A stretch of 32,944 nucleotides of DNA from a virus, in IMG/VR virus record IMGVR_UViG_3300009154_000156, positions 1 to 32,944 of that record. One strand, given 5' to 3'. Positions 1 through 32,944 of the stretch are shown here, one piece after another (positions within the stretch are counted from its first letter, which is position 1; each line of letters opens with the position of its first letter). A model generated the notes under the pieces. It was not told the DNA's origin, made no database searches, and saw nothing but the letters and a program-made list of their open reading frames with translations. The position numbers and the translations under genes are program-made.

Positions 1-1563
1 AACACAATGGACTCAGATTCAGAAGTCAATGCTGCACTTGATATTCTTGCTGAATTTTGCACTCAAATTAATGATACCAACCGTACTCCATTTGAATTCT
101 TTTTTAGAGACACTGCGACTCAGGCTGAGATTCTAGTCTTAAGAAAATATCTCCAGCAATGGTGCAAGATGAATAAGTTCACAAACAGAATTTTTAAAAT
201 AGTCAGAAATGCATTTAAGTTCGGTGATGTGTTCTTTGTCAGAGATCCTGAAACTCAAGAATGGATGTATATTGATCCATCAAAAGTTGATAAAATAATT
301 GTTAATGAAAGCAGTGGAAAATTACCAGAGCAGTATGTAATCAGAGACCTTAATATTAATTTGCAAAATTTAACAGTAACTCAGATTAATCCTAGTAATA
401 CCTCAGGTACACCAGGAGGCACCAATTATATGACTGCTGGCGCTCAACAACGTGGTATGGCCGGAAGCATTCCAGGAAATGTTGGAACTAGATTTCAACT
501 TAATCAAAATCAGTATGCTATAGATGCCAAGCATGTAATTCATCTATCGATGAGTGAGGGATTAGATGATAATTTTCCCTTTGGTAACAGTCTATTAGAA
601 AGTATTTTTAAAGTTTATAAGCAAAAAGAATTACTCGAAGACGCAATTATCATTTATCGTGTGCAACGTGCTCCAGAGCGTAGAGTATTTTATATTGACG
701 TTGGTAACATGCCAAGTCACCTAGCAATGAGCTTTGTTGAAAGAGTCAAGAACGAAGTAAATCAACGAAGAATTCCTAGTTTGACCGGTGGCGGAACAAG
801 CGTTATTGACACTAGCTACAACCCACTAGCAATAGGTGATGATTTCTTCTTTCCACAAACTGCGGAGGGAAGAGGTAGTAAAGTTGAAATTCTTCCAGGC
901 GGATCAAATTTGGGGGAAATAGATGATTTACGGTACTTTACTAATAAGCTTTTTAGAGCGTTGCGTATTCCTAGCAGCTACCTTCCCACCGGTCCTGATG
1001 ATGGAGGCTCTGCCTTTAACGATGGTAGAGTGGGAACCGCCTATATCCAAGAGTTGAGATTCAACAAATATTGTCAGAGATTACAAGGAATCTTAAACGA
1101 GCACTTTGATAATGAATTTAAATTGTATCTCTTTAACAAAGGGGTTAATGTTGATCCTAATATTTTTGATATTAAATTTAATCCTCCTCAGAACTTTGCC
1201 TCCTATCGCCAAGCAGAAATGGACACCGTTCGAGTTTCCACATTCGCAAGTATGTCAGAGGTAGCCTTTATTAGCAAGCGATTTGCATTAAAGCGTTTCT
1301 TAGGTATGAGCGAAGAAGAAGTTGCAGAAAATCAAAAGTTGTGGAGAGAGGAAAATCTGGAAAATATTCAACAGGGTCTAGGCGCCAGTGCGGAAATGAG
1401 ATCAGCGGGAATTACAGCAGGTGGTGCAGCAATGGATCTAGGTGCAATTGATAATGCTGGTATTCCTCCAGAAGGAATGACAGACGGTGATATGGGAGCG
1501 GCACCACCAGCTTCAGGAGCGGCACCAGCGCCAGGAGCTAGTTCAGCTCCTCCGCCGATGTAA
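1..1563 (+). CDS. gp20: Portal vertex protein gp20, 5'-truncated by the window edge
   Basis: This is the T4-type portal protein, which forms the dodecameric ring at the special head vertex through which DNA is packaged and ejected. The stretch at about 630-715 encodes LLEDAIIIYRVQRAPERR followed by V-Y-D-GNMP-like residues. I recall the near-identical T4 gp20 segment LLEDAVVIYRITRAPDRR. The frame is open to base 1, and the first ATG (7) has no ribosome binding site. The residues after it (EVNAALDIL) align with about residue 87 of T4 gp20. The true start is therefore very probably upstream of the window, and the ATG at 7 is internal. The visible part is 520 codons, so the full protein would be longer than the 524 residues of T4. 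The C-terminal 40 residues are Ala/Pro/Gly-rich and low-complexity, unlike the acidic tail of T4 gp20. Family identity is secure; the start is unknown. Confidence 0.95.
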   Translation, partial: NTMDSDSEVNAALDILAEFCTQINDTNRTPFEFFFRDTATQAEILVLRKYLQQWCKMNKFTNRIFKIVRNAFKFGDVFFVRDPETQEWMYIDPSKVDKIIVNESSGKLPEQYVIRDLNINLQNLTVTQINPSNTSGTPGGTNYMTAGAQQRGMAGSIPGNVGTRFQLNQNQYAIDAKHVIHLSMSEGLDDNFPFGNSLLESIFKVYKQKELLEDAIIIYRVQRAPERRVFYIDVGNMPSHLAMSFVERVKNEVNQRRIPSLTGGGTSVIDTSYNPLAIGDDFFFPQTAEGRGSKVEILPGGSNLGEIDDLRYFTNKLFRALRIPSSYLPTGPDDGGSAFNDGRVGTAYIQELRFNKYCQRLQGILNEHFDNEFKLYLFNKGVNVDPNIFDIKFNPPQNFASYRQAEMDTVRVSTFASMSEVAFISKRFALKRFLGMSEEEVAENQKLWREENLENIQQGLGASAEMRSAGITAGGAAMDLGAIDNAGIPPEGMTDGDMGAAPPASGAAPAPGASSAPPPM

Positions 1564-4752: not shown

Positions 4753-5934
4753 ATGTCACAACTTCTGAACGAAAGATGGTCAGAAACCAAAGAAGCTCTG
4801 CTTGAAGGCCTCCAAGGGACCCGCAAAGCTTCGATGTCTGTATGCCTAGATAATACACGTCGTTACCTTTCAGAAAGCGCTTCCTCTGGTGCGACTTCTG
4901 CAGGCAACATTGCTACACTAAACCGCGTCATTCTTCCAGTAATTCGACGTGTTATGCCAACTGTTATTGCTAACGAAATCGTTGGTGTTCAGCCAATGAC
5001 TGGTCCAGTTGCTCAGATCCACACTCTACGTGTTCGTTATGCTGATACTGCTAGCGGTTCGGACGTAGTTGCTGGTGAAGAAGCACTAAGCCCATTCAAG
5101 ATTGCTGCTGCTTACTCAGGTAACGACAGCAGTTCTGCACCAAAGGCAACTTCAACTGCACAGCTTGAAGGTACCCCAGGTCGTAGAATGAGCATTCAGA
5201 TCTTGAAGGCACCAGTTGAAGCAAAGAGCCGTAAGCTCTCTGCTCGTTGGACTTTTGAAGCTGCTCAAGATGCACAGGCTCAGCAGGGCATTGACATCGA
5301 AGCAGAAATCATGGCAGCTCTTGCACAGGAAATCACAACTGAAATTGATCAGGAAATCCTTGCATCACTCCGTGCTCTTGCATCAGTCGAAGAAACATAT
5401 GACCAGTCACTTGTTTCTGGTACAGCAACATTCGTTGGTGACGAACATGCTGCTCTTGCAATTCAGATTAACCGCGTAAGCAACAAGATTGCACAGCGTA
5501 CACGTCGTGGTGCTGGTAACTGGGCTGTTGTGTCTAACCAGGCACTAACAATCCTACAGTCAGCTACTACTTCTGCGTTTGCTCGTACAACTGAAGGTAC
5601 TTTTGAAGCACCTACAAACACTAAGTTTGTTGGTACTCTAAACGGTGCTATGCGCGTTTATGTTGATGCATATCGTCCAGACAGCGACGACGACAACCAA
5701 GTTCTTATTGGTTATAAGGGTACAAGCGAAGCAGATGCTGCTGCGTTCTATTGCCCATATATTCCTCTAATGAGTTCAGGTGTTGTTCTTGACCCAGCAA
5801 CTTTTGAACCAGTTGTTGGTTTCTTGACCCGCTACGGCTACGTGGAACTCACCAATACTGCAAGTTCGTTGGGAAATGCCGCCGATTACTTGGGCAAAGT
5901 TTCAATCACTTCTGCAAACGTAAGTTTCAAGTAA
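4753..5934 (+). CDS. gp23: Major capsid protein gp23, short form
   Basis: This is the T4-type HK97-fold major capsid protein that forms the head hexamers. Recognisable features are the N-terminal 'TLNRVILPVIRRVMP..IANEIVGVQPMTGPV' block (residues about 56-88), the central ARWTFEAAQD...GIDIEAEI region, and the C-terminal PYIPLM...DP.TFEPVVGFLTRYG block. At 393 residues it is much shorter than T4 gp23 (521), which implies that much of the T4 insertion domain is absent. A match to the gp21 site consensus, L-L-E|G, lies at residues 16-19, so the removed N-terminal piece may be only about 18 residues (65 in T4). AAGGAG lies 7 bases upstream of the ATG. Codon choice shifts to regular, CG-richer codons compared with the fibre genes, as expected for the most abundant protein. 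No gp24-like vertex gene follows. Confidence 0.97.
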   Translation: MSQLLNERWSETKEALLEGLQGTRKASMSVCLDNTRRYLSESASSGATSAGNIATLNRVILPVIRRVMPTVIANEIVGVQPMTGPVAQIHTLRVRYADTASGSDVVAGEEALSPFKIAAAYSGNDSSSAPKATSTAQLEGTPGRRMSIQILKAPVEAKSRKLSARWTFEAAQDAQAQQGIDIEAEIMAALAQEITTEIDQEILASLRALASVEETYDQSLVSGTATFVGDEHAALAIQINRVSNKIAQRTRRGAGNWAVVSNQALTILQSATTSAFARTTEGTFEAPTNTKFVGTLNGAMRVYVDAYRPDSDDDNQVLIGYKGTSEADAAAFYCPYIPLMSSGVVLDPATFEPVVGFLTRYGYVELTNTASSLGNAADYLGKVSITSANVSFK

Positions 5935-8370: not shown

Positions 8371-8376
8371 AAACAG

Positions 8377-8404: not shown

Positions 8405-8415
8405 AAGGTCAATGA

Positions 8416-8955: not shown

Positions 8956-8958
8956 ATA
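8951..8958 (+). promoter_or_regulatory. T4-type late promoter for the 8978 gene
   Basis: This is an exact TATAAATA that contains the stop codon of the 8416 gene, 19 bases before the ATG at 8978. Transcription would begin near 8964, leaving a very short leader that still includes most of the AGAGGAA ribosome binding site. Confidence 0.55.
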
Positions 8959-8977
8959 TTACAGAGGAAAAATATCA

Positions 8978-10045: not shown

Positions 10046-10053
10046 GAAATTTC

Positions 10054-10368: not shown

Positions 10369-11108
10369 TGAAGTTTTATAAACGCCTGTCAATTGATAGC
10401 AAGGATCCTATGAACAATTCATTTGCTGTTGAATCTGATGGCAGAATTGTAACAGATACCACAAAAAGTATACAGATACCACTAGGCACTACTGCTCAAC
10501 GGCCTGGTGTTCTTAACAATGGCCAACTTCGTTACAATTCTAGTATTGGATCTTCTGGTGGTGAATTAGAGGCATATGTTGGTGGCAAATGGGAAATTAT
10601 AAAAACGGTTAGGCAGTCGAACATATCTCAACAAATATTTTACAATGGTAATTATGCAAATACTATATTTGGACCTCTGAGCTATAACGTGGATATTACT
10701 AGGCCACAAAATGTAGTAGTATTTGTAGAAAATGTGCCTCAAATTGCTAATTTAAATTATACACTAATAAGCTCACCTATAACAACATCAACAACTGCTA
10801 CAGTTCGAGTTGTTTCTGGTACAGTTCTAACAGTAAAATCTGTTGCAGATTTTAACGTTTCAAATAGAATTACTCATTCTGGAAATGCAATTTCCGTTGG
10901 TACAACTATTACCTCCGTTAATGTTACTAACTCAACAATATCTATTTCTAATGCTTTAATTGGTACAATAAACACTGGTGATAGTCTGACCACTAGTTTT
11001 TCGTCAGGAACTTATATAAAATTTGTCGAAGACTCATTGCCTGTTCCCACTAAACCAGTGATTGCTATATTAGGATTTGACGGATATACACCGCCATTTG
11101 CTCCCTAA
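10368..11108 (+). CDS. Virion structural protein, tail-fibre associated
   Basis: This is a 246-residue protein. The N-terminal part has IPLGTTAQRPGVLNNGQLRY (about residues 41-60), a pattern of phage fibre proteins ('G.t.qRP..p..G.lRyn...g..E.Y.gg.W'), followed by GELEAYVGGKWEIIK. The middle (about 100-130) has FGPLSYNVDITRPQN then VFVENVPQI. A Val/Thr/Ser-rich insert of the 'V.VGTTI.SV....' type spans about 145-215, and the protein ends with PTKPVIAILGFDGYTPPFAP. I recognise this architecture from structural proteins of T4-like marine phages. The start overlaps the previous stop by one base, so it is coupled. It has no clear ribosome binding site of its own. Confidence 0.78.
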   Translation: MKFYKRLSIDSKDPMNNSFAVESDGRIVTDTTKSIQIPLGTTAQRPGVLNNGQLRYNSSIGSSGGELEAYVGGKWEIIKTVRQSNISQQIFYNGNYANTIFGPLSYNVDITRPQNVVVFVENVPQIANLNYTLISSPITTSTTATVRVVSGTVLTVKSVADFNVSNRITHSGNAISVGTTITSVNVTNSTISISNALIGTINTGDSLTTSFSSGTYIKFVEDSLPVPTKPVIAILGFDGYTPPFAP

Positions 11109-11130
11109 CAACATAGTTTTTCATAAATCA

Positions 11131-11138
11131 GCTAAATA
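11131..11138 (+). promoter_or_regulatory. Late-promoter-like box GCTAAATA before the giant gene
   Basis: GCTAAATA lies in the 118-base gap before the giant gene and shares CTAAATA with 7363-7370. By T4 spacing the transcript would start at about 11144, which is the base just before a perfect hairpin. Confidence 0.45.
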
Positions 11139-11144
11139 ATAGTA

Positions 11145-11160
11145 CTGTCATAAATGACAG
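11145..11160 (+). promoter_or_regulatory. Perfect hairpin at the predicted 5' end of the giant-gene transcript
   Basis: CTGTCATAAATGACAG is a 6-base-pair stem with a TAAA loop, or an 8-base TGTCAT/ATGACA palindrome core. The same TGTCAT/ATGACA arms occur at 7415-7429. No T-run follows, so it is not a terminator. A 5'-terminal stem that protects the message is a plausible role. Confidence 0.5.
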
Positions 11161-11196
11161 CCGGACTGTGGTAAACCCGCAATGTAATGTGGTTAT

Positions 11197-11221
11197 CCGT
11201 GAAACACGGTGTATTGGGGAG
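11197..11221 (+). promoter_or_regulatory. Hairpin and ribosome binding site that fix the giant-gene start
   Basis: CCGTG (11197-11201) pairs with CACGG (11205-11209) around AAA. GGGGAG follows at 11216-11221, 5 bases before ATG 11227. An in-frame GTG at 11209 lies in the hairpin itself and has no ribosome binding site. The ATG at 11227 is therefore taken as the start. Confidence 0.65.
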
Positions 11222-11226
11222 CAAGT

Positions 11227-14200
11227 ATGGGCATAGGTCGTATTACTGGTCCGCTGCTCGCGAATAATCTTCTTCGCGATGGTCGGAACTTAGCAGTTGA
11301 AACAGATTTACTTTATCTAGACGTTACTAATGGACGCATCGGCGTTAAAAATGCAACTCCTCAATATAATTTAGATGTACAAAATAACGCTAGAATAGCA
11401 AATATATCCTTCACTGCAACAAGCACTGGCAGTATTATTCTTAACACAGTTGGTAATTTGATTATTTCCTCTGGAGGAGATGATACCGATATAGTAATGC
11501 GAAATAATCTATCAGTTGAAGGTAATATTCATGCTGTTGGAAATATTACTGCTGGCGGAAACGTCCAAATTGGCAATGGCTCAGGTTCAGATGTTGTTGG
11601 AATTTTTGCAAATGTCATATCGGATATTGTTCCTCAAACAGACAATGAATATAATATAGGATCTGAACAGCAGTCATGGGCTACCGCATACGTTAACTCA
11701 CTCATAGCAAGTAAGCTGTTGAGTCCAGCTGGCCAAGAAATTAATATCGGAATGCCTCTCAGAGAAGATGCTACTATAACCGATATTACAAATCCTACTA
11801 TAAATTTAAACGGTCCAGTTAGAATTTGGGGAGATAATCCACTAGGAACCGCTCCTATAACTAGTAATACTCTTTATGTCACAATGGACGGAAGTGATAC
11901 AAATGATGGTCGTGCTCAAGATCCATCTCGTGCGTGTAGAACAATTACTGGAGCACTCAGAAGTCCATTTTATCAACCTGGCACAAGTATTAAAGTTGCT
12001 GCTGGTAGATATTATGAAAATAATCCACTTGAATTAAAACCATACACATCCGTTATTGGAAGCGATCTTAGAACAACAGTAATTGAACCAATAAACAAAA
12101 CACAAGATTTGTTTCATGTTCAATCTGGGTGTTATCTAGCACAAATGTTGTTTGCAAATGGTCAAAGTGGATTGCTTCCAGGACCAGGATATAAGCCAGG
12201 AACAAATCGCGGAGCATATGCTACTGCATTTCCTCCTAACTATAGCTCACAAAAGATTGATCTTTATCATTCGCCATATATACAAAATTGTACTAATCAA
12301 AGTGGTCCTTGGTTACAAGATGGCACAATGTTTCAGCCAAATCAGACCGTGCAAATTCCACAGGCTGTTGGAACAGCAACCTGGGTAGTTAATACAACTA
12401 CACTGAGAGTCGTATTAAGTGAAGGCACCTTGTCTGTTGGTCAGAGTATTAATGCTGGACCGACTCCTCAAAGTCATATTAATGCTAGAACACTTCTTCT
12501 TGCTAATAAGCCATTTATTCAAGAACAAGTTATTGCATATATAGGTGTTAATTATCCTACTTTTGTTTATAATAAAGCAACATATCGTAGAGATATTGGA
12601 GTAATTGTTGAAAATATTGCTTATGATGCTGCATTTGGTGGAAATGAAAAATCTGTTGAAGGTGGATTGTTATATTGGGACGGCGTTACTAGTGTAATTG
12701 CAGATGGAATTACACAAACTGCCAGTGCGATTAATTATATCAATACGCTATCACAATATATTATTGCAAATAATACTGCGACAAATTTATTAGGACAAGC
12801 ACAGCTAGCTCCACAGGTAATCAATTACAATTTAACAGGCGGGTCTGCTGCTGGCTCGATTGTTACAAATTTAATAGGAATAATTTCAACAGTAGTTCAA
12901 AGTGGTCCATCTAGTGCTCCGCAAATTCAAGTTGGCAACGGTCCAGACTGGGGATCAGTGTCGGCAGAAGTATTATTACAATCAAATAGATCGTTTATAC
13001 AAAACGAAGTTGTGAGTTATGTTAATTCTACATATCCAGATTTCTTGTACAGAGAAGATTTGTGCTATAGAGATACGGGATTAATAATTGATGCCATTAG
13101 TCAAGACATCATTCTTAATGCTAACGCCAAAACAATTGAAGCAGGCAAAACATATTGGACCGGTAATACTAGTGCAGTTACTGGACAAATAACAGAAACG
13201 GTAAATGCTTTATCTCGTGCAAAAGATATAAGTCTGCAAATTGTAAATAATGCAACTGTAACTACTACAGCATTTACATTTAATTCTACCAAATGCGCTC
13301 GTGATACTGGCCTAATTGTTGATGCAATTTCACAAGATCTTTTATTTGGAGGCAACAGTCAATCAACATTTGCAGGAATTCAATATTGGAATCATGGTGA
13401 TTATGTTGGAGAAATTGGCAACGAGATAACCACTACCACCAATGCCATCAAATATATAAGTAGCCTGACACAGCGAATTATTTTGAATCAACGTGTTACT
13501 CCTCTGCAAAATGTTGTTTCTCAAGTTACTGCGACTTCTACTGCAACGGCAGCTGAAGTCACTATCATACGAAACGAATTCAACATTATCACTGATATTT
13601 TGACTAGTGGAACGGTTGGAGTGACTAATTTAATTGTTCCAAATAGATTGACACCTAGTACAACAGCATCCGTTATTACTGCATATGATTTGATACAAAA
13701 TAATGTTAATTTTCTAAAAGAAGAAGCAATTGCTTGGGTAGAACAAAATAAAAATTTCAGATATACTACTGCAACTTGTGCAAGAGATGTTGGATTGATT
13801 GTCGATAGTATTGTTCTTGATCTCAAGTTCCCTACAACCGCTTTAAGTCAGTCAACATTTGCAGGATTGCAATACTGGAATCAAGGTGGATATACTGGAG
13901 ATATTGGAAGCGAAGTAACAGCTACAGTAAATGCAATATCTCATCTTTCAGAAATTGCTAGATATGTAATTGTGAATAATACCTCAAGTGGAGTGAGATA
14001 TGCAGGAGTTCAACCAGTAATTAATCTTCCTGCGGCAGGAGCATCAGAACAATCGTTCCTGACCAAAGAATTTACTACAATCACAAACATAATTCTAAAT
14101 GGAACAACAGGCACATCTAATCAAATTATTTCAAACGGAATCGTTGCATCTTCTAGCTCTACTGTAAACAATGCATATAACATTCTTCAAGCAAATAAAG

Positions 14201-17200
14201 CATATTTACAAGCAGAAACTGTTGCATATGTTGAAGCAACCAAGTCACCTGGATTTGTTTATAATACATCCACTTGCTACAGAGATGTGGGATATATGAT
14301 CGACTCGGTAAGTTTTGATCTTCTTTATGGTGGAAATAGACAAGCAATTCAAAGCGGAGTATATTATTATAGTTTCAACGGTAGTACTGCTGTTCCAAAT
14401 GAAATCGAACAGGTAATATCTGCCTATAAATTTATTCTTGGGTTAAGTAGTAGTATTATCAGAAATGATCCAGTTAATGCTCTGCAAACAACAGTTGATC
14501 AAGTTTACACTACTACATCATCAAATATTACAGTGTTCGATGACATCGATGAAATAGTAACACGTATTACTGATATCATTGAGTATGGTCCTGGAGTTGT
14601 TGATGTAAAACAGCCTATCAGTTTGACTAAAACTAACGAAATAATGAAGGAATATGCTGCTAAAAATCTTCTTGCAAATAAAGATTTTATTAAAGCAGAA
14701 ACAATTGCTTATATTGACAAATATCTAGTATTTCAGTATGATCCTGAAACTTGCAGAAGAGACGTTGGATATATTCTAAATTCAGTTAGTTTTGACCTTC
14801 TTTATGGTGGAAACAGACAGGCAATTCAAAGTGGAGTTTACTATTGGGGATACAGTAATGTAAGTACTACATTACCTAAAGAGCGTTCTGCCACCACACT
14901 TGCATATCAATACATGAAAAGATTGATGTCAGATATCGTTGTTAATAATAGAATAAGTACAACTTACCAGACTTCTTCCACACAAGTAACTGGACTTTCT
15001 CCTGCAACACAAATAGAAGTTGATGCAATTTCTGTAAATATTGACAAAATTGTCAATATCATTAACAGAGGTCCACAAACAGCTGGCGCCAAAACTCCGA
15101 TTGGACTAGTTAGAAGCAACAATGTTTTTGTTCAAAATGCTGCTAATTTTCTGTCTGCTAACAGGGATTTTATTCAAAAAGAAGTTAACGCCTTTGTCAG
15201 TGAAATGCTGGTAAACAATGCTCAGGTATTTTTACCATTCTATTCTAAGGGATCACAAGCAACTCTATCAATAACTAGAAACTTTAATATTATTTCAGAG
15301 ATAATTGAAAAGGGACCAGGAGTTGCTCCAATAATATCACAAGGAAATGGCATTTTTATTAAAACTGGCCTAAGTCCTGACGATATTAAAATTGCACCAG
15401 TTATTACTAATATAACAACCATAACTGCTGGAGTATATCAAGTAGATATCAGCCAAAGTACTATTGGTTATGGTGATAGTAATGTACTATATTTTGGAGA
15501 AACTGCTGTATTTCCTCTACTTGATAATGATGTTCCTGATAGATGGCAGCAACGCAGAGTTAATCCAATTGGGTCAATGGGCGGAAGTCTTGTTGACGGT
15601 AAAGTAATATCTGACAGAAGTCCTATTAAGTCATTTGTTTATGATGCGTATACTCAAGTGAATCAGGGCGGCCGAGGCGTTCACGTTATTAACAATGGAT
15701 ACGCTCAGTTAGTTTCTGTGTTTACTATTTTCTGTAGTGATGCAGTGACCGTTGAGAATGGTGGTATCTGTTCAATAACTAACTCCAATAGTAACTTTGG
15801 TGATATATGTTTGACTGCAAAAGGATATGGATTTAGAGAATTCTCTGGATATATCAAGAATCCGCCAATTCTGCCTTATTTTCCTAATGGATTTTATCCT
15901 CAAAGAGGAACAGTACAGGTTTATATTGCTGACCCAAGACTTCGCCCACATATTGCGCTAGTTATGGAAGTTGAACCTCCTGCTGATTTTGTTAATAATC
16001 AAGGACTTCCTGGATTCTTGTCAGGCAATACTAACGTGGCTACATTAACCACTGGAACTATTACAATCTCTGGAATTGATAATACTGGAATGGTAATTGG
16101 ACAGAATGTATTTATAAGAGATCAGTTTGGAAGAACATACGATAGTAATGGCAAGCCTTATCTAGTATCAGGCACAATTGTAGCAGATGTTTCTTACCAA
16201 AGTGTTACCTTAAATTATCCATTAAATTCGGGCGGCGGCGATCCTAATAACTCAAATTATTTCAGTTTGTACACTTGTGGTAATGCTTATTACACAGTTC
16301 TATCAAGTACTATAGCTGAAGACAAATTTAGTAGTACTAATGCTCGCGAAGCATATAACTTACTACAAGCAAATAGGACATTTTTACAACAAGAAACAAT
16401 TGCCTTTATTGAAGCAACTAAAACTGTAGGATTCTCGTACAATACTTCAACCTACTATCAAGATGCTGGAAATATTGTTGATTCAATAAGTTTTGACTTG
16501 TTATACGGAGGCAATAGGCAAGCTATACAACGTGGTGTATACTACTATAATTTTGCCGGATCTACGTCTATTCCTGGAGAAACAACAGCAACGGTTGCGG
16601 CATTTAATTATATCGGAACACTGTCGAATAAAATTATTCAGGGAACAACGGTAACCCCGCTGCAAACGGTTATTCCTCAATTTAAAAATGGAAAGTATGG
16701 CACCATTAGTGAGGCAACAAGTGTTACAAATAATATTGGTATTATAAATGGTATTATTACAAATGGGCCAGGCGGATATGCTAAACCTCCTATGAATTTG
16801 AATAGATCAACTAGTACCAATGTATTAAATGCTGCTAGAATTTTAAGTGCAAATAGGTCATTTATTCAAGCAGAAGTAATAAAGTTTGTTTCAAATAATT
16901 ATCCACTATTGGTATACACTACTGCTACTTGCAGAAGAGACACAGGATTGATTGTTGATTCATTAGTTCAAGATTTGATATACTCAACCTCAAGTCAGTC
17001 AACATTCTCAGGTATGCAATATTGGAATCAAACAGGTTATGCTGGCAGTATTGCCAATGAGATTACTACCACCACTGCTGCTATTAGTTACTTAAAGAGT
17101 GTTGCTGAAAATGTTGTACAGGGAATTGTGTCTACTGGATACTCAACTGGCACACAGGTTACTAATCTTCCTTATGCTACAGAAACGGAGGCAAAAACTT

Positions 17201-19101
17201 TAGGTGCTGATTTTGATGTAATTCTAAACATTTTAAATAATGGAACAGTAGGTGTTTCTGGTGCAATTATTCCAAATAGTATAGATCCAATCGGCGCAGG
17301 CTATTCACTTTTACCAAGTCCACAAAATGTCGAAGAACTATATAGTTTACGGTATCTAAGTACTATCACTCAGTCTATAGTTGCAAATACAACAGTTACT
17401 AATAAGTACGGCAAGACTGCGCAAGTTTTTGATAATACCTTAGGTGGTGGAAGTAGTGCAACTACATTTATTACTGATAGACTTGCTCTTATAGGAAGCA
17501 TAATTGTAAATGGTCCTGATAGTGCTCCTGCTATTACAAGAACAGGAGTTCTTCCAACCGGCGCAGGGGACGCTGCTAGTTTACTTAATAAAAATAGAGC
17601 ATTTATTCAAGATGAAGTGGTGTCATTTGTTAATATAACAAATTACGGATTTACTTATAGTGAAGACAAGTGCTCAAGAGACTCTGGCTTAATTGTTGAT
17701 GCGATTGCGCAAGATATACTATTTAGTACTAGTAGTCAATCGACATTTGCAGGATTACAATATTGGAATCAAGGTGGTTATGCAGGAACTCTTCCTTCTG
17801 AAATTAATACAACTACATCTGCAATTCGTTATATTAGTAGTTTGACTCAGCAAATTATACTATCAACCACTGGAACCAGATACCAAAGTGTAAGTTCACA
17901 AGTTACCAGTACCAACATAGGAAGCAACTTAGAAGTATATAAGGTAAAAACCGAATTTAACACAATTGTTGACATTCTTGTAAATGGTACAGCCAGTGTA
18001 TCGGACATAATTCAACCAAATAGCTTAACTTCAAGTACCAATGTAAATGTTATTAATGCCTATAATTTGCTACAGTCAAATAAAAATTATATTAAAGACG
18101 AATTTATTGCGTATATTAATTCTACAACGGTTGGATTTTCATATAACGAGGCCAACTATCGTAGAGATATTGGATATATTGTTGATTCTGTGAGTTTTGA
18201 TATACTATATGGAGGTAACCGCCAAGCTGTTCAAAGTGGTGTATACTACTACAGTTATAATACAAGTTCGTCTGCAATTTCAAATTACGAATTAACTCCT
18301 ACAATAGATGCATATAATTACATCAATTCTTTGACAACAAAGATTATATTAGGACAGGCGATTACTCCTAAACAAACCAAGGTTGCTCGTGTGTTTTCTA
18401 CAACTGCAACATCCGTGGAATCAAGTCTTGCTCAAACTAATTTGAATCTTATTAAAACTATTATACAAAATGGTCCTAGTGGATATGCAAATACTCCTAT
18501 TTCTTTGGCAAGAAGTACCAGTACTAATAAAATCGCAGCAGCTACTATTTTACAAGATAATAGAAAGTTTATTCAAGCAGAAGTGATTGCATATATTAAT
18601 AACAAGTATCTTCCATATAATCAAACAAAATGTAGAAGAGATGTTGGATTTATTGTAGATGCTATAATTTACGACTTAGATAAGGGTGGAAATTATAATA
18701 GTGTTATTGCCGGAAAGAGTTATTTTGCTACAAGTGGTACATATCATGTTGTGTCGCTTGAGGAAAATATTACCGATCCAGCATTGTTCCCGGATGATGC
18801 AATTGTAACTTTCTACCAACGAAGTTATATGTCTGCAAGTGGTTATTTGTTTGAATATGTTGGCGCTGGGACAAACTACGGATCTCTACCACAGGTAGGT
18901 AGAGCAGATCCTGTACAAAGCAAAGAAGTAGTTCAGTTAAATAATGGTAAAGTATTCTTTACTTCTACTGACCAGAACGGAGATTTTAGAATTGGACCAG
19001 GATTAGTAATTAGTCAGGCAACCGGTGTATTGTCAGGTAGAACCTTTACAAAATCACTATTTGCTAATCTAACACCATTCATCTTAGCAATTGAAGGATA
19101 A
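11227..19101 (+). CDS. Giant repeat-bearing virion protein with beta-helix
   Basis: This protein of about 2,624 residues is a presumed tail-fibre or tail-spike component. The start MGIGRITGPLLANNL and GRIGVKNATPQYNLDV (about 37-52) are a conserved fibre-type N-terminus. A parallel beta-helix of pectate-lyase type begins at about 215 (LYVTMDGSDTNDG, then the AGRYYENNPLEL and SVIGSD turns) and breaks off near residue 390. It resumes at about 1457-1536 (GKVISDRSPIKSFVYDAYTQ, GYAQLVSVFTIF, ITNSNSNFGD). Modules of about 160 residues fill the interruption and continue after the helix until about residue 2505. Each module has a 'LL.aNr.FIQ.E.iaYi' helix, a 'C.RD.G.IVDsi..DL' core, and 'NRQAIQSGVYYY' or 'SQSTFAG.QYWNQ'. 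The last 115 residues (FEYVGAGTNYG, FFTSTDQNGDFRIG, SGRTFTKSLFA) are a conserved C-terminus of such proteins. Function is inferred. Confidence 0.9.
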   Translation: MGIGRITGPLLANNLLRDGRNLAVETDLLYLDVTNGRIGVKNATPQYNLDVQNNARIANISFTATSTGSIILNTVGNLIISSGGDDTDIVMRNNLSVEGNIHAVGNITAGGNVQIGNGSGSDVVGIFANVISDIVPQTDNEYNIGSEQQSWATAYVNSLIASKLLSPAGQEINIGMPLREDATITDITNPTINLNGPVRIWGDNPLGTAPITSNTLYVTMDGSDTNDGRAQDPSRACRTITGALRSPFYQPGTSIKVAAGRYYENNPLELKPYTSVIGSDLRTTVIEPINKTQDLFHVQSGCYLAQMLFANGQSGLLPGPGYKPGTNRGAYATAFPPNYSSQKIDLYHSPYIQNCTNQSGPWLQDGTMFQPNQTVQIPQAVGTATWVVNTTTLRVVLSEGTLSVGQSINAGPTPQSHINARTLLLANKPFIQEQVIAYIGVNYPTFVYNKATYRRDIGVIVENIAYDAAFGGNEKSVEGGLLYWDGVTSVIADGITQTASAINYINTLSQYIIANNTATNLLGQAQLAPQVINYNLTGGSAAGSIVTNLIGIISTVVQSGPSSAPQIQVGNGPDWGSVSAEVLLQSNRSFIQNEVVSYVNSTYPDFLYREDLCYRDTGLIIDAISQDIILNANAKTIEAGKTYWTGNTSAVTGQITETVNALSRAKDISLQIVNNATVTTTAFTFNSTKCARDTGLIVDAISQDLLFGGNSQSTFAGIQYWNHGDYVGEIGNEITTTTNAIKYISSLTQRIILNQRVTPLQNVVSQVTATSTATAAEVTIIRNEFNIITDILTSGTVGVTNLIVPNRLTPSTTASVITAYDLIQNNVNFLKEEAIAWVEQNKNFRYTTATCARDVGLIVDSIVLDLKFPTTALSQSTFAGLQYWNQGGYTGDIGSEVTATVNAISHLSEIARYVIVNNTSSGVRYAGVQPVINLPAAGASEQSFLTKEFTTITNIILNGTTGTSNQIISNGIVASSSSTVNNAYNILQANKAYLQAETVAYVEATKSPGFVYNTSTCYRDVGYMIDSVSFDLLYGGNRQAIQSGVYYYSFNGSTAVPNEIEQVISAYKFILGLSSSIIRNDPVNALQTTVDQVYTTTSSNITVFDDIDEIVTRITDIIEYGPGVVDVKQPISLTKTNEIMKEYAAKNLLANKDFIKAETIAYIDKYLVFQYDPETCRRDVGYILNSVSFDLLYGGNRQAIQSGVYYWGYSNVSTTLPKERSATTLAYQYMKRLMSDIVVNNRISTTYQTSSTQVTGLSPATQIEVDAISVNIDKIVNIINRGPQTAGAKTPIGLVRSNNVFVQNAANFLSANRDFIQKEVNAFVSEMLVNNAQVFLPFYSKGSQATLSITRNFNIISEIIEKGPGVAPIISQGNGIFIKTGLSPDDIKIAPVITNITTITAGVYQVDISQSTIGYGDSNVLYFGETAVFPLLDNDVPDRWQQRRVNPIGSMGGSLVDGKVISDRSPIKSFVYDAYTQVNQGGRGVHVINNGYAQLVSVFTIFCSDAVTVENGGICSITNSNSNFGDICLTAKGYGFREFSGYIKNPPILPYFPNGFYPQRGTVQVYIADPRLRPHIALVMEVEPPADFVNNQGLPGFLSGNTNVATLTTGTITISGIDNTGMVIGQNVFIRDQFGRTYDSNGKPYLVSGTIVADVSYQSVTLNYPLNSGGGDPNNSNYFSLYTCGNAYYTVLSSTIAEDKFSSTNAREAYNLLQANRTFLQQETIAFIEATKTVGFSYNTSTYYQDAGNIVDSISFDLLYGGNRQAIQRGVYYYNFAGSTSIPGETTATVAAFNYIGTLSNKIIQGTTVTPLQTVIPQFKNGKYGTISEATSVTNNIGIINGIITNGPGGYAKPPMNLNRSTSTNVLNAARILSANRSFIQAEVIKFVSNNYPLLVYTTATCRRDTGLIVDSLVQDLIYSTSSQSTFSGMQYWNQTGYAGSIANEITTTTAAISYLKSVAENVVQGIVSTGYSTGTQVTNLPYATETEAKTLGADFDVILNILNNGTVGVSGAIIPNSIDPIGAGYSLLPSPQNVEELYSLRYLSTITQSIVANTTVTNKYGKTAQVFDNTLGGGSSATTFITDRLALIGSIIVNGPDSAPAITRTGVLPTGAGDAASLLNKNRAFIQDEVVSFVNITNYGFTYSEDKCSRDSGLIVDAIAQDILFSTSSQSTFAGLQYWNQGGYAGTLPSEINTTTSAIRYISSLTQQIILSTTGTRYQSVSSQVTSTNIGSNLEVYKVKTEFNTIVDILVNGTASVSDIIQPNSLTSSTNVNVINAYNLLQSNKNYIKDEFIAYINSTTVGFSYNEANYRRDIGYIVDSVSFDILYGGNRQAVQSGVYYYSYNTSSSAISNYELTPTIDAYNYINSLTTKIILGQAITPKQTKVARVFSTTATSVESSLAQTNLNLIKTIIQNGPSGYANTPISLARSTSTNKIAAATILQDNRKFIQAEVIAYINNKYLPYNQTKCRRDVGFIVDAIIYDLDKGGNYNSVIAGKSYFATSGTYHVVSLEENITDPALFPDDAIVTFYQRSYMSASGYLFEYVGAGTNYGSLPQVGRADPVQSKEVVQLNNGKVFFTSTDQNGDFRIGPGLVISQATGVLSGRTFTKSLFANLTPFILAIEG
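12490..15240 (+). repeat. First array of ~160-residue modules in the giant gene
   Basis: Module starts (the 'aNr.FIQ.E' helix) fall near 12490, 12972, 13690, 14182, 14665 and 15148, spaced about 480-490 bases apart where intact. A further 'RD.G' core near 13290 belongs to a module lacking its first helix, and the copy at 15148 lacks the rest. The array interrupts the beta-helix domain. Confidence 0.85.
16345..18740 (+). repeat. Second array of ~160-residue modules in the giant gene
   Basis: Module starts lie near 16360, 16840, 17581, 18067 and 18550. Periods are about 480-486 bases, with one orphan half-module near 17340 making the longer gap. The last copy leads straight into the conserved C-terminal domain. 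Confidence 0.85.
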
Positions 19102-19106
19102 CACAA

Positions 19107-19493
19107 ATGGCACTATTACCGTTAAACACGTTTAAAACCAAAACATCAGTACTAACTATAAATTCATCTACAAGAGTATATACTGCTCCAGTAGGGGTTA
19201 CGGCAATTGTGCTTATGGCAAATGCATCTAATATCGATCCTAATAACACGCATTTAATTACTTTTTCTCATTATAGAAATTTGCCTGTTTTGCCAGATAC
19301 ACAAGGAAATGGAGGACAGAGTGGAAACATAATAACTGAGCAAGTAAAGGATTTTCCAATACCAACTAATAATGCAGCCGCATTGTTGTCCGGTAAATTA
19401 ATTGTTGAAAGTTTGGATAGTGTTATTGCATACGCAGATGCACCGGGAGTTATTAAATTAACACTTAGTGTTCTAGAGACGGCTAACCAGTAA
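19107..19493 (+). CDS. Small beta-sandwich virion protein, possible paralogue of the 10054 product
   Basis: This 128-residue protein is all-beta, without cysteine. It has SSTRVYTAPVGVTAIVLMA near residues 20-38, a polar loop (HYRNLPVLPDTQGNGG), and a C-terminal LLSGKLIVESLDSVIAYAD then IKLTLSVLETA. Strand order and the 'L.gkLive..D.i.AyA....i..tlsv' ending parallel the 104-residue protein at 10054. GAAGGA (19093-19098) lies 8 bases before the ATG. It sits between the giant gene (5-base gap) and the next fibre gene (1-base gap), so the three are co-transcribed. A structural role at a fibre joint is an inference from position. Confidence 0.75.
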   Translation: MALLPLNTFKTKTSVLTINSSTRVYTAPVGVTAIVLMANASNIDPNNTHLITFSHYRNLPVLPDTQGNGGQSGNIITEQVKDFPIPTNNAAALLSGKLIVESLDSVIAYADAPGVIKLTLSVLETANQ

Positions 19494-26802: not shown

Positions 26803-27030
26803 ATGACTGATAGAATTGAAGAAATGATTTTTATATATTATACTAAAACTGAAGGTGATTTGGTTTTTAAAGCCGTATTAAGAATTAAAAAAGACGAATA
26901 TAATTCAAAGACACCCGAAGAAATTGAAGCAATAAAAGAACAAAATTTTCGTAGATGGTTAAATGCTGTTAATAATCCTGTGGATTTATCATTACTAGAT
27001 GTAACCTCCGATGTAACAACATCTACATAA
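26803..27030 (+). CDS. Small charged unknown protein between fibre genes
   Basis: This gene encodes 75 residues and is not recognised. It begins with a short strand-like stretch (MIFIYYTKTEGDLVFKAVLR). A helix follows with KTPEEIEAIKEQNFRRWLNA, then a Ser/Thr/Asp tail. Unlike its neighbours it is charged and partly helical, so it is unlikely to be a fibre shaft. AAGGA overlaps the previous stop codon, 7 bases before the ATG. The next gene follows after 11 bases. Small proteins lodged among fibre genes are often assembly factors or fibre-base parts. That is only a suggestion here, and no similarity to T4 gp57A or gp38 is apparent. Confidence 0.7.
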   Translation: MTDRIEEMIFIYYTKTEGDLVFKAVLRIKKDEYNSKTPEEIEAIKEQNFRRWLNAVNNPVDLSLLDVTSDVTTST

Positions 27031-27041
27031 GGATATAAAAG

Positions 27042-30000
27042 ATGGCAATTCGTTATTTTTATGTTCCGGTTAATTTTGGTATTGCTAATCCCACGTTCTC
27101 TTGGAGCAACATATCTGGAACCAATGGATATTGGTGGACTGGTAGCGGAGGCACTGGAAGCCGATTAACTGGCCTTCCAACCTACGGTGACACTGTTATT
27201 TTTGATAAAAACTCTAATCCTTACTTTGCTGGCGGCAACAATAGTTATACAATTAACATAGATACAACTGCTCGTCTAACGTCATTAACAATATCTAATC
27301 CTAGTGCAGGAATAGTAACATTTACAGGAAGCAGTGGTATACTATTCCAACTAACTTCTTCTATTGATGGATATTTAGAAATAAACAGCGGTGTAAACTG
27401 GCAAAATAATGGAAGTTTTCGTACAATAGAATCGGGCGTTGGGACTAGTAAATTACCTAATCTTGGAGTTAATATAAGTAGCACGGTAGGGACAATAGAA
27501 AATTCAATTGGATTGTTAAATGGATCACCTAGTTCTATTAATCATTTGGTATTGTATTCAGATCTATCAACTAGAGGATTGATTTATACTAATAGTTTAT
27601 CTCTAGGAGGTTATTATTTAACGTGTTCTTTATTACAATTCACCTCTGCTAATCCTTTAATAAACTCAGATTATGATACTAATATTACTATTACAGGATC
27701 TAATGGCAGAGTCTTTTATTTAAATGGTATCGATCTAGCTTCTGATATATTACTAAATTATACACAAATCACTTTAGATTTTACATACCAGGGTTCCTCG
27801 GGAATTCGGACTATATGGCATGATTTGTCAAATAATTCAAATTATCTTAATCCAGACATTATCAGTACATTATTTAATATTAACATTTATGGAAACGATT
27901 CAATTATTATTGACGCCTCTTCACGACCTCATCCAGTCAATGATTTAACTATTTATAATGGAACTAGAACAATAACACTTAACAGCGACCTGAACATCTA
28001 TGGAAATTTAACATTACCATTAAATTCTTCAATGGTTCCTGGAGTATCTGGAGGTATTACAAGTGCTCCTACTATAGTTTTTTTAAATAATCCCTATTAC
28101 TATGGTCCATATACTATTACATCTAACAACTCAACAATAAATGCTGATATTATATTTCAAGGAGAAGATTATAGTGGTTGGTATATCTATGATAATTTTA
28201 CCATAGCATCATCAAAAGCAGTACTATTTAGATCAGGGTATATCGATGTTTCCGGAATAACATTAACATGTGGAACTATAAAAGGAATTAGAGCAGGACG
28301 ATATCCAAGTCCAATAGTAATTCAAGCTGATTTTCCAGCTACTTTTCAACTTACTAGAGCATCTGACACTTCATCAATTCCAAATAATACGCTAAGTTCT
28401 GATCCTTCATCATCATTAATATATACAACTGCTACTGTTTTTAATGTAGATCCAATCAATTTTGACATTTCATTAGCTTCTCCTAATCTTACTGTAAAAT
28501 TAAATAGTTCTGGTGCAAATAGTGGTGCTTACAACAGAACTGTATGTGTAGGAGCCGGTAGTAATACTTTTGGATTAGATCAAAATGTAAGTTTTATAAA
28601 TTTCTGGATATCAGATGGGTCTGGTTACTTTGATTTTGAACCCAAGGAACTACCGGGTGCAGTTATTGGTGATCTAGATTTTAGGGGATTTACCGGAATA
28701 TTTGTTGTTCCGTCTTCTTCTGCTGTTGCTGGTACATTAAATATTTATGGAAGTTTATACTTAGGAAATGCACAAATACCAGGACTTTCAACGTCGGTAA
28801 CTAAACCAGACAATTATAAATGGATAATGAATCCTTATAATTCAAATAGAAATTACGAGTCCATAATTTCTTCAAATGGTAAAACTATTACATGGCCACT
28901 TGTATTAGATACCACAATTCCTAATTCAGGAGGAACATTTACATTAGCTGATAATTTTAATTATGATCTTTCTCTAAGTGGTTTTAAAGCAATAAATTAT
29001 CCCTTATGTCTGTTTAATGGAGTTTTTAATATAAATGGTAAAACTGCAACAACTACATATGCTTCAATGATTTCTGACGGAGGAATGACTATTAATAGTG
29101 GAACATTGACATGTAACACTTTTACTCAAGCAGGAATATTAACTTTAGACTTAGGAGGAAAATTAGTATCTTCTACTCCATTTAACTTTAACGGTGGACA
29201 ACTCAATACATTAAATGGAACTACGATAGAATGTCCTCGTGCTGTAATAAGCACAACTGTGATATCCACAGGAACAATTAACTTTGATACTGGTTTTATT
29301 AGTGTTAAAAGCATTACTAATGGAATATATGTTTGGGATTCAACTAATCCTCAGTCACATCAATATGTAACATTTACTGACTCAGGAGGAGGAGTACGAC
29401 TTGACGGAGTCGGAGTATTAGGAGGAGTTAGATACATTTATCAAGGAAATATTGATAGTGAAACTAATTCTGTAAACTTTTACATTAGGGCAGGCCAAGA
29501 TCAAGTAAGATTTACTAATAATACTACTGGTATAAAAAATCTAGATCTCACTGGATTTTCGGGCTCATTATATTCACCTTCTCTTAAACTTTATGGAAAT
29601 TTAACATTGTCAAGTGATGCGACGTTTTTGACAGCAACTGAAATTAATTTTGCCGCGTCCACTGGAACTAAAACAATTGCTACCTCTAATAATCCACTTT
29701 TTTCGACAATGATTAAATTTACTTTTAATGGCACAGCTTCATATAGATTACTAGATAATGTAAACGGACTTACATCTTGGACACTTAATAGTGGAACACT
29801 AGATTTAAATAGAAAAACCTTATCAGTTCAGCAATTTACTTCTACTAGTTCGACTAATAGAACATTAAATATGACTAGTTCTACGATTTTAATGACAAAC
29901 AATAATAGCAATATTCCTGCAATATGGACTGTTACTAACACACTTGTTATGCAAAGTAATACTGGCTCAAATATATATTTTGTAGGAAACGGCGGAAATG

Positions 30001-30368
30001 TATTAGGAAATAACATATTCAATGGCGGTGGTAATTCTTATAATCTTGTTGGAATAAAAGATAACGGATATGCGGGTGGAATAAACATCACCGGCGAAAA
30101 TACTTTTGTAACATTACAACAAGATGTATATACTGCTACTACCTGGACCTTTGCATCATCATCAACTACAATTGTAACTAATTTTAATATATCCGGAAAA
30201 GATGCTGCAAATAGAGCAAATATTAGAAGCTCAACATCGGGCACTCAGTTTACATTAAGTAAAAGCTCGGGAATAGTATCGGTTAAATACACCAGCATTC
30301 AAGACAGTAATGCAACTGGTGGTGCAAGGTGGTTTGCATTAAAGAGACAAGGAAACACAGATGGCTAG
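27042..30368 (+). CDS. Beta-solenoid fibre or adhesin protein
   Basis: This 1,108-residue protein is Asn/Ser/Thr/Ile-rich. The N-terminus (FSWSNISGTNGYWWTG then GLPTYGDTVIFDKNSN) is a known start of surface beta-solenoids: 'W.gs.tnW...sGG.g....PT..D.ViFd'. The body repeats turns of 'lti.ngt.tit..snl.iyGnltl' (for example NDLTIYNGTRTITLNSDLNI and LKLYGNLTLSSDATF), consistent with a long right-handed solenoid. The C-terminal end (FTLSKSSGIVSVKYTSIQDS, ATGGARWFA) is a widespread domain that normally finishes with a 'dGGNNtGWIF' strand. Here a TAG stop comes just before that strand, and the strand is encoded by the next, overlapping frame. AAGGA lies 8 bases before the ATG. It is probably receptor-binding. 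It overlaps the following gene by 8 bases. Confidence 0.85.
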   Translation: MAIRYFYVPVNFGIANPTFSWSNISGTNGYWWTGSGGTGSRLTGLPTYGDTVIFDKNSNPYFAGGNNSYTINIDTTARLTSLTISNPSAGIVTFTGSSGILFQLTSSIDGYLEINSGVNWQNNGSFRTIESGVGTSKLPNLGVNISSTVGTIENSIGLLNGSPSSINHLVLYSDLSTRGLIYTNSLSLGGYYLTCSLLQFTSANPLINSDYDTNITITGSNGRVFYLNGIDLASDILLNYTQITLDFTYQGSSGIRTIWHDLSNNSNYLNPDIISTLFNINIYGNDSIIIDASSRPHPVNDLTIYNGTRTITLNSDLNIYGNLTLPLNSSMVPGVSGGITSAPTIVFLNNPYYYGPYTITSNNSTINADIIFQGEDYSGWYIYDNFTIASSKAVLFRSGYIDVSGITLTCGTIKGIRAGRYPSPIVIQADFPATFQLTRASDTSSIPNNTLSSDPSSSLIYTTATVFNVDPINFDISLASPNLTVKLNSSGANSGAYNRTVCVGAGSNTFGLDQNVSFINFWISDGSGYFDFEPKELPGAVIGDLDFRGFTGIFVVPSSSAVAGTLNIYGSLYLGNAQIPGLSTSVTKPDNYKWIMNPYNSNRNYESIISSNGKTITWPLVLDTTIPNSGGTFTLADNFNYDLSLSGFKAINYPLCLFNGVFNINGKTATTTYASMISDGGMTINSGTLTCNTFTQAGILTLDLGGKLVSSTPFNFNGGQLNTLNGTTIECPRAVISTTVISTGTINFDTGFISVKSITNGIYVWDSTNPQSHQYVTFTDSGGGVRLDGVGVLGGVRYIYQGNIDSETNSVNFYIRAGQDQVRFTNNTTGIKNLDLTGFSGSLYSPSLKLYGNLTLSSDATFLTATEINFAASTGTKTIATSNNPLFSTMIKFTFNGTASYRLLDNVNGLTSWTLNSGTLDLNRKTLSVQQFTSTSSTNRTLNMTSSTILMTNNNSNIPAIWTVTNTLVMQSNTGSNIYFVGNGGNVLGNNIFNGGGNSYNLVGIKDNGYAGGINITGENTFVTLQQDVYTATTWTFASSSTTIVTNFNISGKDAANRANIRSSTSGTQFTLSKSSGIVSVKYTSIQDSNATGGARWFALKRQGNTDG

Positions 30369-32944
30369 TGCAGGTAATAATACGGGTTGGATATTTAATA
30401 TAACAATTAGATTGACTGCCGAAGGAACTCTATATACTAGTACAGCTGAACTTGATGAAGTAACAACTTCGTCAATAAGAATGTCTGATATGTCAATTTA
30501 TGCCAAACAATTTGTAGAAGACGTTAGTTTACCAGTACCAATGAGATATACATCTACAGGAAATATCATAGTAGCTAGCAGCTTTGATGAAATAACATTG
30601 GTTACAGATACATCGCCAGTTTCTGCTTCCTTACCTAGGCAGTTTCTTAGTATTACTCCAAACGACACAATTCAGCCACTATCTACTTATGGATGGACAG
30701 CAGGTATAATATCCTCTACAGCTCCTGGAGCTACATTTACACTCACAAATAGTGCAAATGATCAGTTTTCCATTGGCGGAAATATGTTGCGTCTAGAAAA
30801 AGTATTAGGTGCGCCGGATACTAATTATAATATTATTATAGTAGGATCAGCACCTGGATATCAAGATGTTACTACCTACTTTACTATTAGGGTAACAGAT
30901 AATATCAAGGTAGGACTCGTGGAACGTATCAATGCGCTTTCAACATCTACTTTATGGCAAGATTCCGCTGGCACTAATCAAGTAACTGCAAACGGACAGG
31001 CCGTAAAAAAAATTAGAGGAAGTATAGCAGGGTGGGAAGCAAGTACTTCGACTAATGGTCCTGTATATACTGCAAATGCTCAGAATGGTCAACCAGGACT
31101 AACCTTTAATGGAACTAATCAGTCTCTCAACTTCACTACATCGGCCGCTATAAACTTTTTTGGGCCATCTTGGCGTAACAAGCAGTGGACTATTATAGTA
31201 GTTTGTAAAATAGCAAGTACTGGCACTAATAAAACTATATTTGCAGTTGGAAATAATACAGGTAGCTCTAAGGTTATATACAATATCACCAGAGTGGGAC
31301 TCACATCTCGACTTGGATATGTAATAGGTTCAGGCGGTATTACGGTACCAGATGGGGATGCTGGAGAATTCACGTTAGGACAGGCAGCTATTAGTTCTAT
31401 TTCTAGTGATGGTGCTCCAGACGAGGTTCATGTGTTATTCCAACATAACGGTATTTACGGTTACACTAGTAATAACGGTAATCCAACATCACATGTGCCT
31501 CTACTGAACACTACTGGTACTATGACCCCTTCTGTTGCAGTTTTGGGTGGGCGAACGGATTCGTCCACAGATTATTTCAACGGAACCATTTTAGATATTC
31601 TCTTTTACGATAGATATATTGGCACTGTTGAAATGGGATATATTCATAAAAAATTAGGTGAGCAATGGGGCATTAATATTGATAATACTGCTAATGAGCC
31701 GACATTGGATTTATCTAATCATACATTAGAGTGGAGTGATGATTTTGACACTTTAAATATGAATACTCAATTTTTAGGTAGTGGAAATGCTACTCTAGGT
31801 TCAGATAGTAATCCTACTGGTTGGACTCCTGCTTATTGGAATGTCGCTCAGGGTAAAGATGAGTATGGCTCTGATACACCTCTGTTAAATGAAACAGCAT
31901 GGATGATAGACCCTAGAAATCCAATTTATGCTCTAAATGGTATAACAGATAGTTATACAGCAAACAATTCAGTTTTGACCATAAAAACTTATCCTAGACC
32001 AGAGGGCATATCAAGCACGTTAACTAAAGGAAGAAATTATCTAGGCGGTGCTCTCATTAGTCAACAGTGGAAAACTGTAAGATTTCCTGGAGCTGTGAGT
32101 ATACGTTTCAAAACGGGTAGACCACAATTAGGAGTTTACACTGCTGCGTGGCTAATGCCAAATAATCAGGCGTGGTATGATGAAGTGGATATTAATGAGC
32201 AGTTAGCCAAGGGTACTACTACTTGCATAAGTAATTATCATTGTATTCCGTATCCAAGTATAGTAAGTGTTAATAAAGGTGCAGCAGGATGGAGCAGAGT
32301 CGCCGAGCCTATGGACGAAGACTTTCATGAGTACACGTATGTAGTAGACGAAACTGGGAGATATATCTACTGGGATGGAGTACTGTTTAGCAAGTTCACC
32401 GGGTGGAAGGGTATAGTAGATAATACTCTTACTTCCGTGGGCAGTGGTTTAGCAAATGGAACATTTACTATCTATGCCTCTGGTGGTAGGGGCAATGCAA
32501 TAGCATCTCTAGTAATTAGTGGAGGACAGGCTTCTAGTGTTACTCTACTCGCTACCGGGCAGGGATTTACCAATTCTAATGCAGTAACGTGGTATTCTAA
32601 TTCTTCTCTAACTATACCATTATCTACTACTTTTCCTGGTGTAGTAATTGATAGTACAGTAGCAAATGATCCTCCGTATGTTCTAAGTACCTTTGAACCA
32701 TTTTATATACTACTCAGCATGAGTCTAGGATCTATATCTGGAACTTTTGACCCTGCATTAAATTATTATCCATCTTTTGAAGTTGACAGAGTAAGACTAT
32801 ACAAAAGAAACATGCCGGTTCCTGCCACACTGACCCTAGGTTATGATACAGGATTTGATGGACAAGTGACCACTGCCGTTAATAATATTGTTGCTGCTTA
32901 TTCTGAACTGGGACAAACGCTAACTGGATCTGCTCGAAATGCAT
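30361..32944 (+). CDS. Tail glycosidase/adhesin: cadherin-like, LamG-like and GH16 domains; 3' end outside window
   Basis: The frame is open from ATG 30361 to the window end (861 codons), with AAGGA (30349-30353) in position. Residues 1-15 contain GNNTGWIF, the expected last strand of the preceding protein. About 93-185 is a cadherin/Ig-like domain (FSIGGNMLRLEKV, YFTIRVTD). About 245-435 is a LamG-like lectin fold (PGLTFNGTNQSLNF, NGTILDILFYDRYIG, KKLGEQWGI). About 456-815 is a glycoside hydrolase family 16 domain: LEWSDDFDTL, GVYTAAWLMP, the catalytic motif E608-V-D610-I-N-E613, HEYTYVVDETGRYIYWDG, and the final strand FEVDRVRLYK. GH16 enzymes cut beta-1,3 or beta-1,4 glucans or galactans with a retaining mechanism; the substrate here is unknown. 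A beta-roll segment of about 70 residues is inserted near 687-760. The part after 815 is unrecognised and cut by the window. It is probably a virion-borne depolymerase. Confidence 0.87.
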   Translation, partial: MASAGNNTGWIFNITIRLTAEGTLYTSTAELDEVTTSSIRMSDMSIYAKQFVEDVSLPVPMRYTSTGNIIVASSFDEITLVTDTSPVSASLPRQFLSITPNDTIQPLSTYGWTAGIISSTAPGATFTLTNSANDQFSIGGNMLRLEKVLGAPDTNYNIIIVGSAPGYQDVTTYFTIRVTDNIKVGLVERINALSTSTLWQDSAGTNQVTANGQAVKKIRGSIAGWEASTSTNGPVYTANAQNGQPGLTFNGTNQSLNFTTSAAINFFGPSWRNKQWTIIVVCKIASTGTNKTIFAVGNNTGSSKVIYNITRVGLTSRLGYVIGSGGITVPDGDAGEFTLGQAAISSISSDGAPDEVHVLFQHNGIYGYTSNNGNPTSHVPLLNTTGTMTPSVAVLGGRTDSSTDYFNGTILDILFYDRYIGTVEMGYIHKKLGEQWGINIDNTANEPTLDLSNHTLEWSDDFDTLNMNTQFLGSGNATLGSDSNPTGWTPAYWNVAQGKDEYGSDTPLLNETAWMIDPRNPIYALNGITDSYTANNSVLTIKTYPRPEGISSTLTKGRNYLGGALISQQWKTVRFPGAVSIRFKTGRPQLGVYTAAWLMPNNQAWYDEVDINEQLAKGTTTCISNYHCIPYPSIVSVNKGAAGWSRVAEPMDEDFHEYTYVVDETGRYIYWDGVLFSKFTGWKGIVDNTLTSVGSGLANGTFTIYASGGRGNAIASLVISGGQASSVTLLATGQGFTNSNAVTWYSNSSLTIPLSTTFPGVVIDSTVANDPPYVLSTFEPFYILLSMSLGSISGTFDPALNYYPSFEVDRVRLYKRNMPVPATLTLGYDTGFDGQVTTAVNNIVAAYSELGQTLTGSARNA

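Follow-up and report, generated by a model that had tools for sequence, protein, structure and literature searches.

Gene Content of the Window and Phage Lineage

The window analyzed here is an entire IMG/VR virus record of 32,944 bp, and its principal genes and features are collected in Table 1. The last ORF of the window (30361-32943, plus strand) starts with ATG and continues for 861 codons without a stop through the contig end, so that the C-terminus of its product lies beyond the contig. An AAGGA-like ribosome-binding site precedes this ORF, and its first 8 bases overlap the upstream gene, which ends at 30368. A foreign or chimeric origin of the gene was considered and is unsupported, given this overlap and a GC content of the region (0.377) near the contig mean (0.375).

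Table 1. Genes, domains and sites annotated in the window
Feature	Position	Strand	Basis
T4-like portal gp20	7..1563	+	PF07230, E=3e-102
T4-like major capsid protein gp23	4753..5934	+	PF07068, E=4e-99
Giant structural/fiber protein, 2630 aa	11209..19101	+	Position conserved in related T4-like contigs
Two repeat-rich fiber proteins, 1020 and 1406 aa	19495..26792	+	Pieces common to related phages
Upstream large fiber-like protein, 1108 aa	27042..30368	+	Overlaps the GH16 gene, same strand
Multidomain tail-region protein	30361..32943	+	Open frame, ribosome-binding site, overlap with upstream gene; 861 aa visible
N-terminal region, aa 1-90	30361..30630	+	No family or sequence relatives found
Putative cadherin/Ig-like beta domain, aa ~92-184	30634..30912	+	tblastn, weak
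Putative LamG/concanavalin-like domain, aa ~184-441	30910..31683	+	phrog_10356, Pfam
Split GH16 glycoside hydrolase domain, aa 452-819 (segments 452-680 and 779-819)	31714..32817	+	PF00722, profile, AlphaFold/Foldseek
Predicted catalytic strand, E608-V-D610-I-N-E613	32182..32199	+	Invariant columns; roles by GH16 homology
Insert of ~95 aa splitting the GH16 domain, aa ~682-777	32404..32691	+	Profile gap 680-779, low pLDDT

The T4-like affiliation proposed in a preliminary description of this DNA was confirmed by Pfam matches to gp20, gp21 and gp23, which occur in T4 order (PF07230, PF03420 and PF07068, respectively). The window gp23 is 69-71% identical to the proteins of GAP32/CBB-type jumbo phages and Vibrio phage 2.275.O. 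Judging from these matches, the contig belongs to a T4-like phage related to GAP32 and RaK2, and the level of gp23 identity makes a jumbo source genome likely. A strongly acidic, low-complexity ORF (343 aa, 1966-2997), partly conserved in relatives, is located between gp20 and gp21, and a homing-endonuclease-like ORF (6041-6847; phrog_314, E=3e-22) immediately follows gp23.

Genes matching positions 7447-19493 are syntenic in related contigs. The giant ORF of this segment starts with GTG and has homologs of ~2200 to 4260 aa at the same place in these contigs. Both of the repeat-rich fiber ORFs that follow carry repeated STSTNSGAL..GGVGIGG..YVGG units and have several segments in common; since the second starts with TTG only 14 bases past the stop of the first, the pair could represent one split gene. 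The remainder of the window (26803-32944), including the 1108-aa fiber-like protein, had no matches in the related contigs. In one relative, the corresponding fiber slot is followed downstream by the genes for the tail-sheath stabilizer and sheath, and the slots of relatives hold other adhesin-type proteins, namely an FN3 minor tail protein and a seven-bladed propeller. These variable contents suggest that the GH16 protein occupies a variable adhesin slot, and the neighboring fiber and structural genes, together with the synteny in relatives, agree with the earlier placement of the gene in a fiber cluster. In the related T4-like contig L169, a 1723-aa protein in the same slot (14203-19374) has fiber-type N-terminal matches and ends in a seven-bladed propeller (Pfam Lactonase, E=5e-39).

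None of 33 related environmental contigs, many of them fragmentary, yielded a GH16 domain in searches with profile A3, which recovered the window. PF00722 searches of the relatives' genomes had missed the window itself; they were therefore not trusted as negatives and were redone with this profile. Neither tblastn against 50,697 phages nor peptide-pattern searches of IMG/VR returned close relatives of the GH16 and N-terminal parts of the protein. Because the whole protein lacks a sequence relative, virion proteomics cannot be transferred to it.

Domains Preceding the GH16 Region

The first 90 residues possibly serve in virion attachment. For the following segment (aa ~92-184), tblastn matches to Brevundimonas and Caulobacter phage proteins (best E=0.02), with lesser matches annotated as cadherin or protocadherin, point weakly to the cadherin-like domain that had been suggested, but Pfam returned no match for this region. 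The LamG-like assignment of aa 184-441 stands on somewhat firmer ground: similarity to phrog_10356, labeled 'virion structural protein' (E=1.1e-4), modestly supports it, although the Pfam Laminin_G_3 match (E=0.25) is below the cut-off and not significant. An AlphaFold model predicted for this region from its single sequence had a pLDDT of 34, too low for use.

Family Assignment of the GH16 Domain

Sequence comparisons and a structural model both assign residues ~452-819 of the ORF to family GH16. The isolated segment (aa 451-819) matched Pfam PF00722 with 34.3 bits (E=2e-8), well above the curated cut-off of 22 bits, which bears out the family membership claimed in the preliminary description. 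When the ORF was scanned as a whole, GH16 went undetected with Pfam, PHROGs and NCBIfam alike. Against PDB sequences, phmmer identified the GH16 enzyme SCLam (6xof), with E=1.7e-4 when the complete ORF served as query and 7e-6 when the isolated domain did. With a custom GH16 profile, constructed from GH16 loci of bacteria and viruses, the ORF scored 32.7 bits, split over two segments (aa 452-680 and 779-819); no score among 2000 shuffles exceeded 5.3 bits, and among the ORFs of related T4-like contigs the top score was 5.6 bits.

In a tree of 100 GH16 domains the window groups with viral sequences (43-row set, support 98/89), beside contig L222. This placement is not relied on, since the window branch is very long and its join carries a warning of a possible long-branch artefact; moreover, most viral rows had been gathered via their WPPE motif, which is a further ground for distrust.

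Catalytic Residues, Divergence and Predicted Structure

The GH16 motifs named from the sequence were all located: EWSDDFD (457-463), GVYTAAWLMP (591-600), EVDINE (608-613), HEYTYVVD (656-663), IYWDG (669-673) and VDRVRLYK (808-815). The E-x-D-x-x-E motif, defined for the beta-bulge type of GH16 active site (PMC6827312), is intact, as had been claimed. In a 58-sequence GH16 alignment its residues E608, D610 and E613 occupy the sole three invariant acidic columns, and A595 and W597 are likewise invariant. By GH16 homology, E608 would act as the nucleophile, D610 as the helper Asp and E613 as the acid/base. W605 and H627 are also retained; a histidine adjoining the catalytic strand has been reported in several GH16 subfamilies (PMC6827312).

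The overall sequence has diverged, with only 35 of the 84 well-conserved GH16 columns matched by the window. The motifs of the GH16_3 laminarinase subfamily, taken here as those conserved among the laminarinase-type sequences that we gathered (WPxxGEIDIME, NNELQYY and LNxAVGG), do not occur in the window domain. Their counterparts are AWYDEVDINE, in which WPxxGE is shortened to WYDE, and LSMSLGS in place of LNxAVGG, while the NE.QYY segment is unrecognizable. As these laminarinase-type motifs fail, no substrate can be deduced from them. The ~95-aa insert, absent from the preliminary description, sits between core strands of the domain, near the C-terminal strands, and might block the catalytic cleft. 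Part of it shows weak similarity to phage proteins of the structural-module kind (phrog_26934, E=0.0035; a cyanophage baseplate wedge protein by tblastn, E=3).

Structure prediction, which the preliminary description had proposed as a check, was carried out for aa 440-825 with AlphaFold guided by a GH16 alignment. The resulting model (pTM 0.72) has core strands with pLDDT of 85-93 and an insert with 38-57 over most of its length. In this model the domain adopts a beta-jelly-roll fold, with one strand (170-176 of the model) at the predicted catalytic motif. The top PDB matches in Foldseek are all GH16 and mostly laminarinases, with E down to 2.8e-15 and, for the best ten, TM to target of 0.75-0.81. 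The alignment supplied to AlphaFold consisted of GH16 sequences, and the fold match is therefore supporting rather than independent evidence.

The combination of preserved catalytic residues and a divergent surrounding is relevant to an alternative in which the GH16 fold has turned into a lectin-like adhesin that binds a host glycan without hydrolysis. The strong divergence from characterized GH16 enzymes with its eroded subsite motifs, the insert near the C-terminal strands and the adjoining LamG-like, possibly binding, region all fit such a protein; however, the catalytic triad, W605 and H627 have all persisted despite the many changed conserved positions, which would be unexpected for a pure adhesin. 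We consider loss of catalysis unlikely.

Proposed Function

Our preferred reading, with a probability of roughly 0.7, takes the product of the ORF to be a receptor-binding depolymerase that is carried on the virion and aids host entry; the phage itself is T4-like, related to GAP32/RaK2 and probably jumbo. A depolymerase, as in the preliminary description, appears the most likely role. We infer virion attachment, activity, substrate and the role in host entry along the following lines. The beta domains of the N-terminal part would serve as tether and spacer on the tail or fiber apparatus, and the LamG-like domain would bind a surface glycan. The GH16 jelly roll would then hydrolyze a beta-linked capsule or exopolysaccharide by a retaining double-displacement mechanism using E608, D610 and E613 in the roles given above, and cutting of the glycan would allow the tail to reach the cell surface.

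A location in the virion is suggested by the T4 head genes, the syntenic giant and fiber genes, the sheath genes found downstream in a relative and the likeness of the LamG region to a virion protein. The occurrence of GH16 in tail proteins of other phages (Curtobacterium phages and contig L205) additionally favors a tail protein. On the other side, the altered GH16_3 substrate motifs, the match to only some of the conserved columns and the possibly cleft-blocking insert weaken the depolymerase reading.

The same gene could in principle be an auxiliary metabolic gene, encoding a laminarinase that the infected cell produces and that helps the host to use algal beta-glucan. GH16 is a common polysaccharide-utilization family, and such an auxiliary metabolic role has been proposed for the viral GH16 laminarinases of kelp-associated phages (PMC11126160). 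In the window, however, the domain is fused behind LamG-like and Ig-like regions in a gene that overlaps a fiber-like gene of a structural cluster, no signal-peptide-like N-terminus was seen by eye, and the glucan-binding motifs of GH16_3 are eroded. A metabolic role is accordingly judged highly improbable.

More tentatively, and with less than even confidence by a wide step, the window GH16 may represent a distinct phage-evolved subfamily, marked by a WxxE[IV]D loop and the large insert. Such a subfamily would be adapted to a bacterial exopolysaccharide uncut by known GH16 enzymes and would travel as an exchangeable fiber-slot cassette among jumbo T4-like phages.

Comparison with Known Systems

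The remark in the preliminary description that a GH16 fiber is not usually reported for T4-like myoviruses needs correcting. Five T4-superfamily Sinorhizobium phages (phiM7, phiM9, phiM12, phiM19 and phiN3) have annotated GH16 beta-glucanase/laminarinase genes, albeit not annotated as fibers, and gp23 occurs together with a viral GH16 in several environmental contigs (G037, G038, G040, G053, G060 and G079). Pattern-based searches (WPPE[IV]D and WPA[FV]W) also found GH16 in 49 IMG/VR contigs. The Sinorhizobium proteins share with the window the shortened loop of two residues ahead of the catalytic strand (WPPEID versus WYDEVD); in contrast, they are stand-alone proteins of ~405-430 aa with a different N-terminal region and ~20% identity to the window. 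The window had no match to phrog_17064, the phiM12-type family, at E<=10, whereas phiM12, L193, L208 and others do match it. This family is labeled 'unknown function' in PHROGs, although its members are GH16 proteins (phiM12-type, L181 8302-9519 and others), and it could be annotated as such. Phage GH16 domains are probably under-counted, since default whole-protein scans missed the domain in the window and PHROGs leaves phrog_17064 unannotated.

The GH16 gene of phiM12 lies by itself, flanked by tRNA and replication genes, and not in a fiber cluster. Such an arrangement would suit a depolymerase, soluble or only loosely attached, whose clearing of matrix serves the release and biofilm spread of progeny rather than entry. 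For the window this role is quite improbable, as its GH16 domain lies in a fiber cluster and is joined to structural-type domains.

In Curtobacterium phages (Daddyjeff and others), GH16 is likewise part of a large protein, here annotated as a minor tail protein. However, these 55-kb phages are not T4-like by size and annotation, and their GH16 domain is near the N-terminus and has other companion domains. In contig L205, an FN3-like/GH16 protein has tail-protein PHROG matches. Paired adjacent GH16-bearing ORFs were observed in viral contigs L205 (8447-15504), L213 and L236; in the L205 pair, FN3-like repeats occur in one ORF, and the other seems to carry an additional glycosidase-like region at its N-terminus.

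The best sequence and fold matches are GH16_3 enzymes, SCLam (6xof) and those of Thermotoga (3azx/4dfs), which have in common with the window the PF00722 domain, the ExDxxE motif, the jelly-roll fold predicted for the window domain and equivalents of W605 and H627. The window differs from GH16_3 laminarinases by its ~20-28% identity, its eroded motifs, its 95-aa insert and its context in a phage multidomain protein of at least 861 aa. The GAP32/CBB/RaK2-like jumbo phages have a gp23 close to that of the window, and related environmental contigs have the same structural cluster, but tblastn found no GH16 in the isolates. The depolymerases described for K64-1 and RaK2 (PMC11652154) are different proteins from the window GH16, and reviewed phage depolymerases, jumbo phages included, are mostly tailspike lyases or hydrolases (PMC6966330, PMC11652154).

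GH16 with binding domains in a jumbo T4-like fiber slot would widen the range of enzyme folds known there, and the window GH16 would offer a concrete test of phage GH16 proteins acting in entry versus as metabolic genes. GH16 was already known from a few phages, yet not from the lineage of the window in the records searched; what is unusual here is that a divergent GH16 domain follows LamG-like and Ig/cadherin-like regions in one protein, encoded in the fiber slot of a jumbo-type (GAP32/RaK2-related) T4-like phage.
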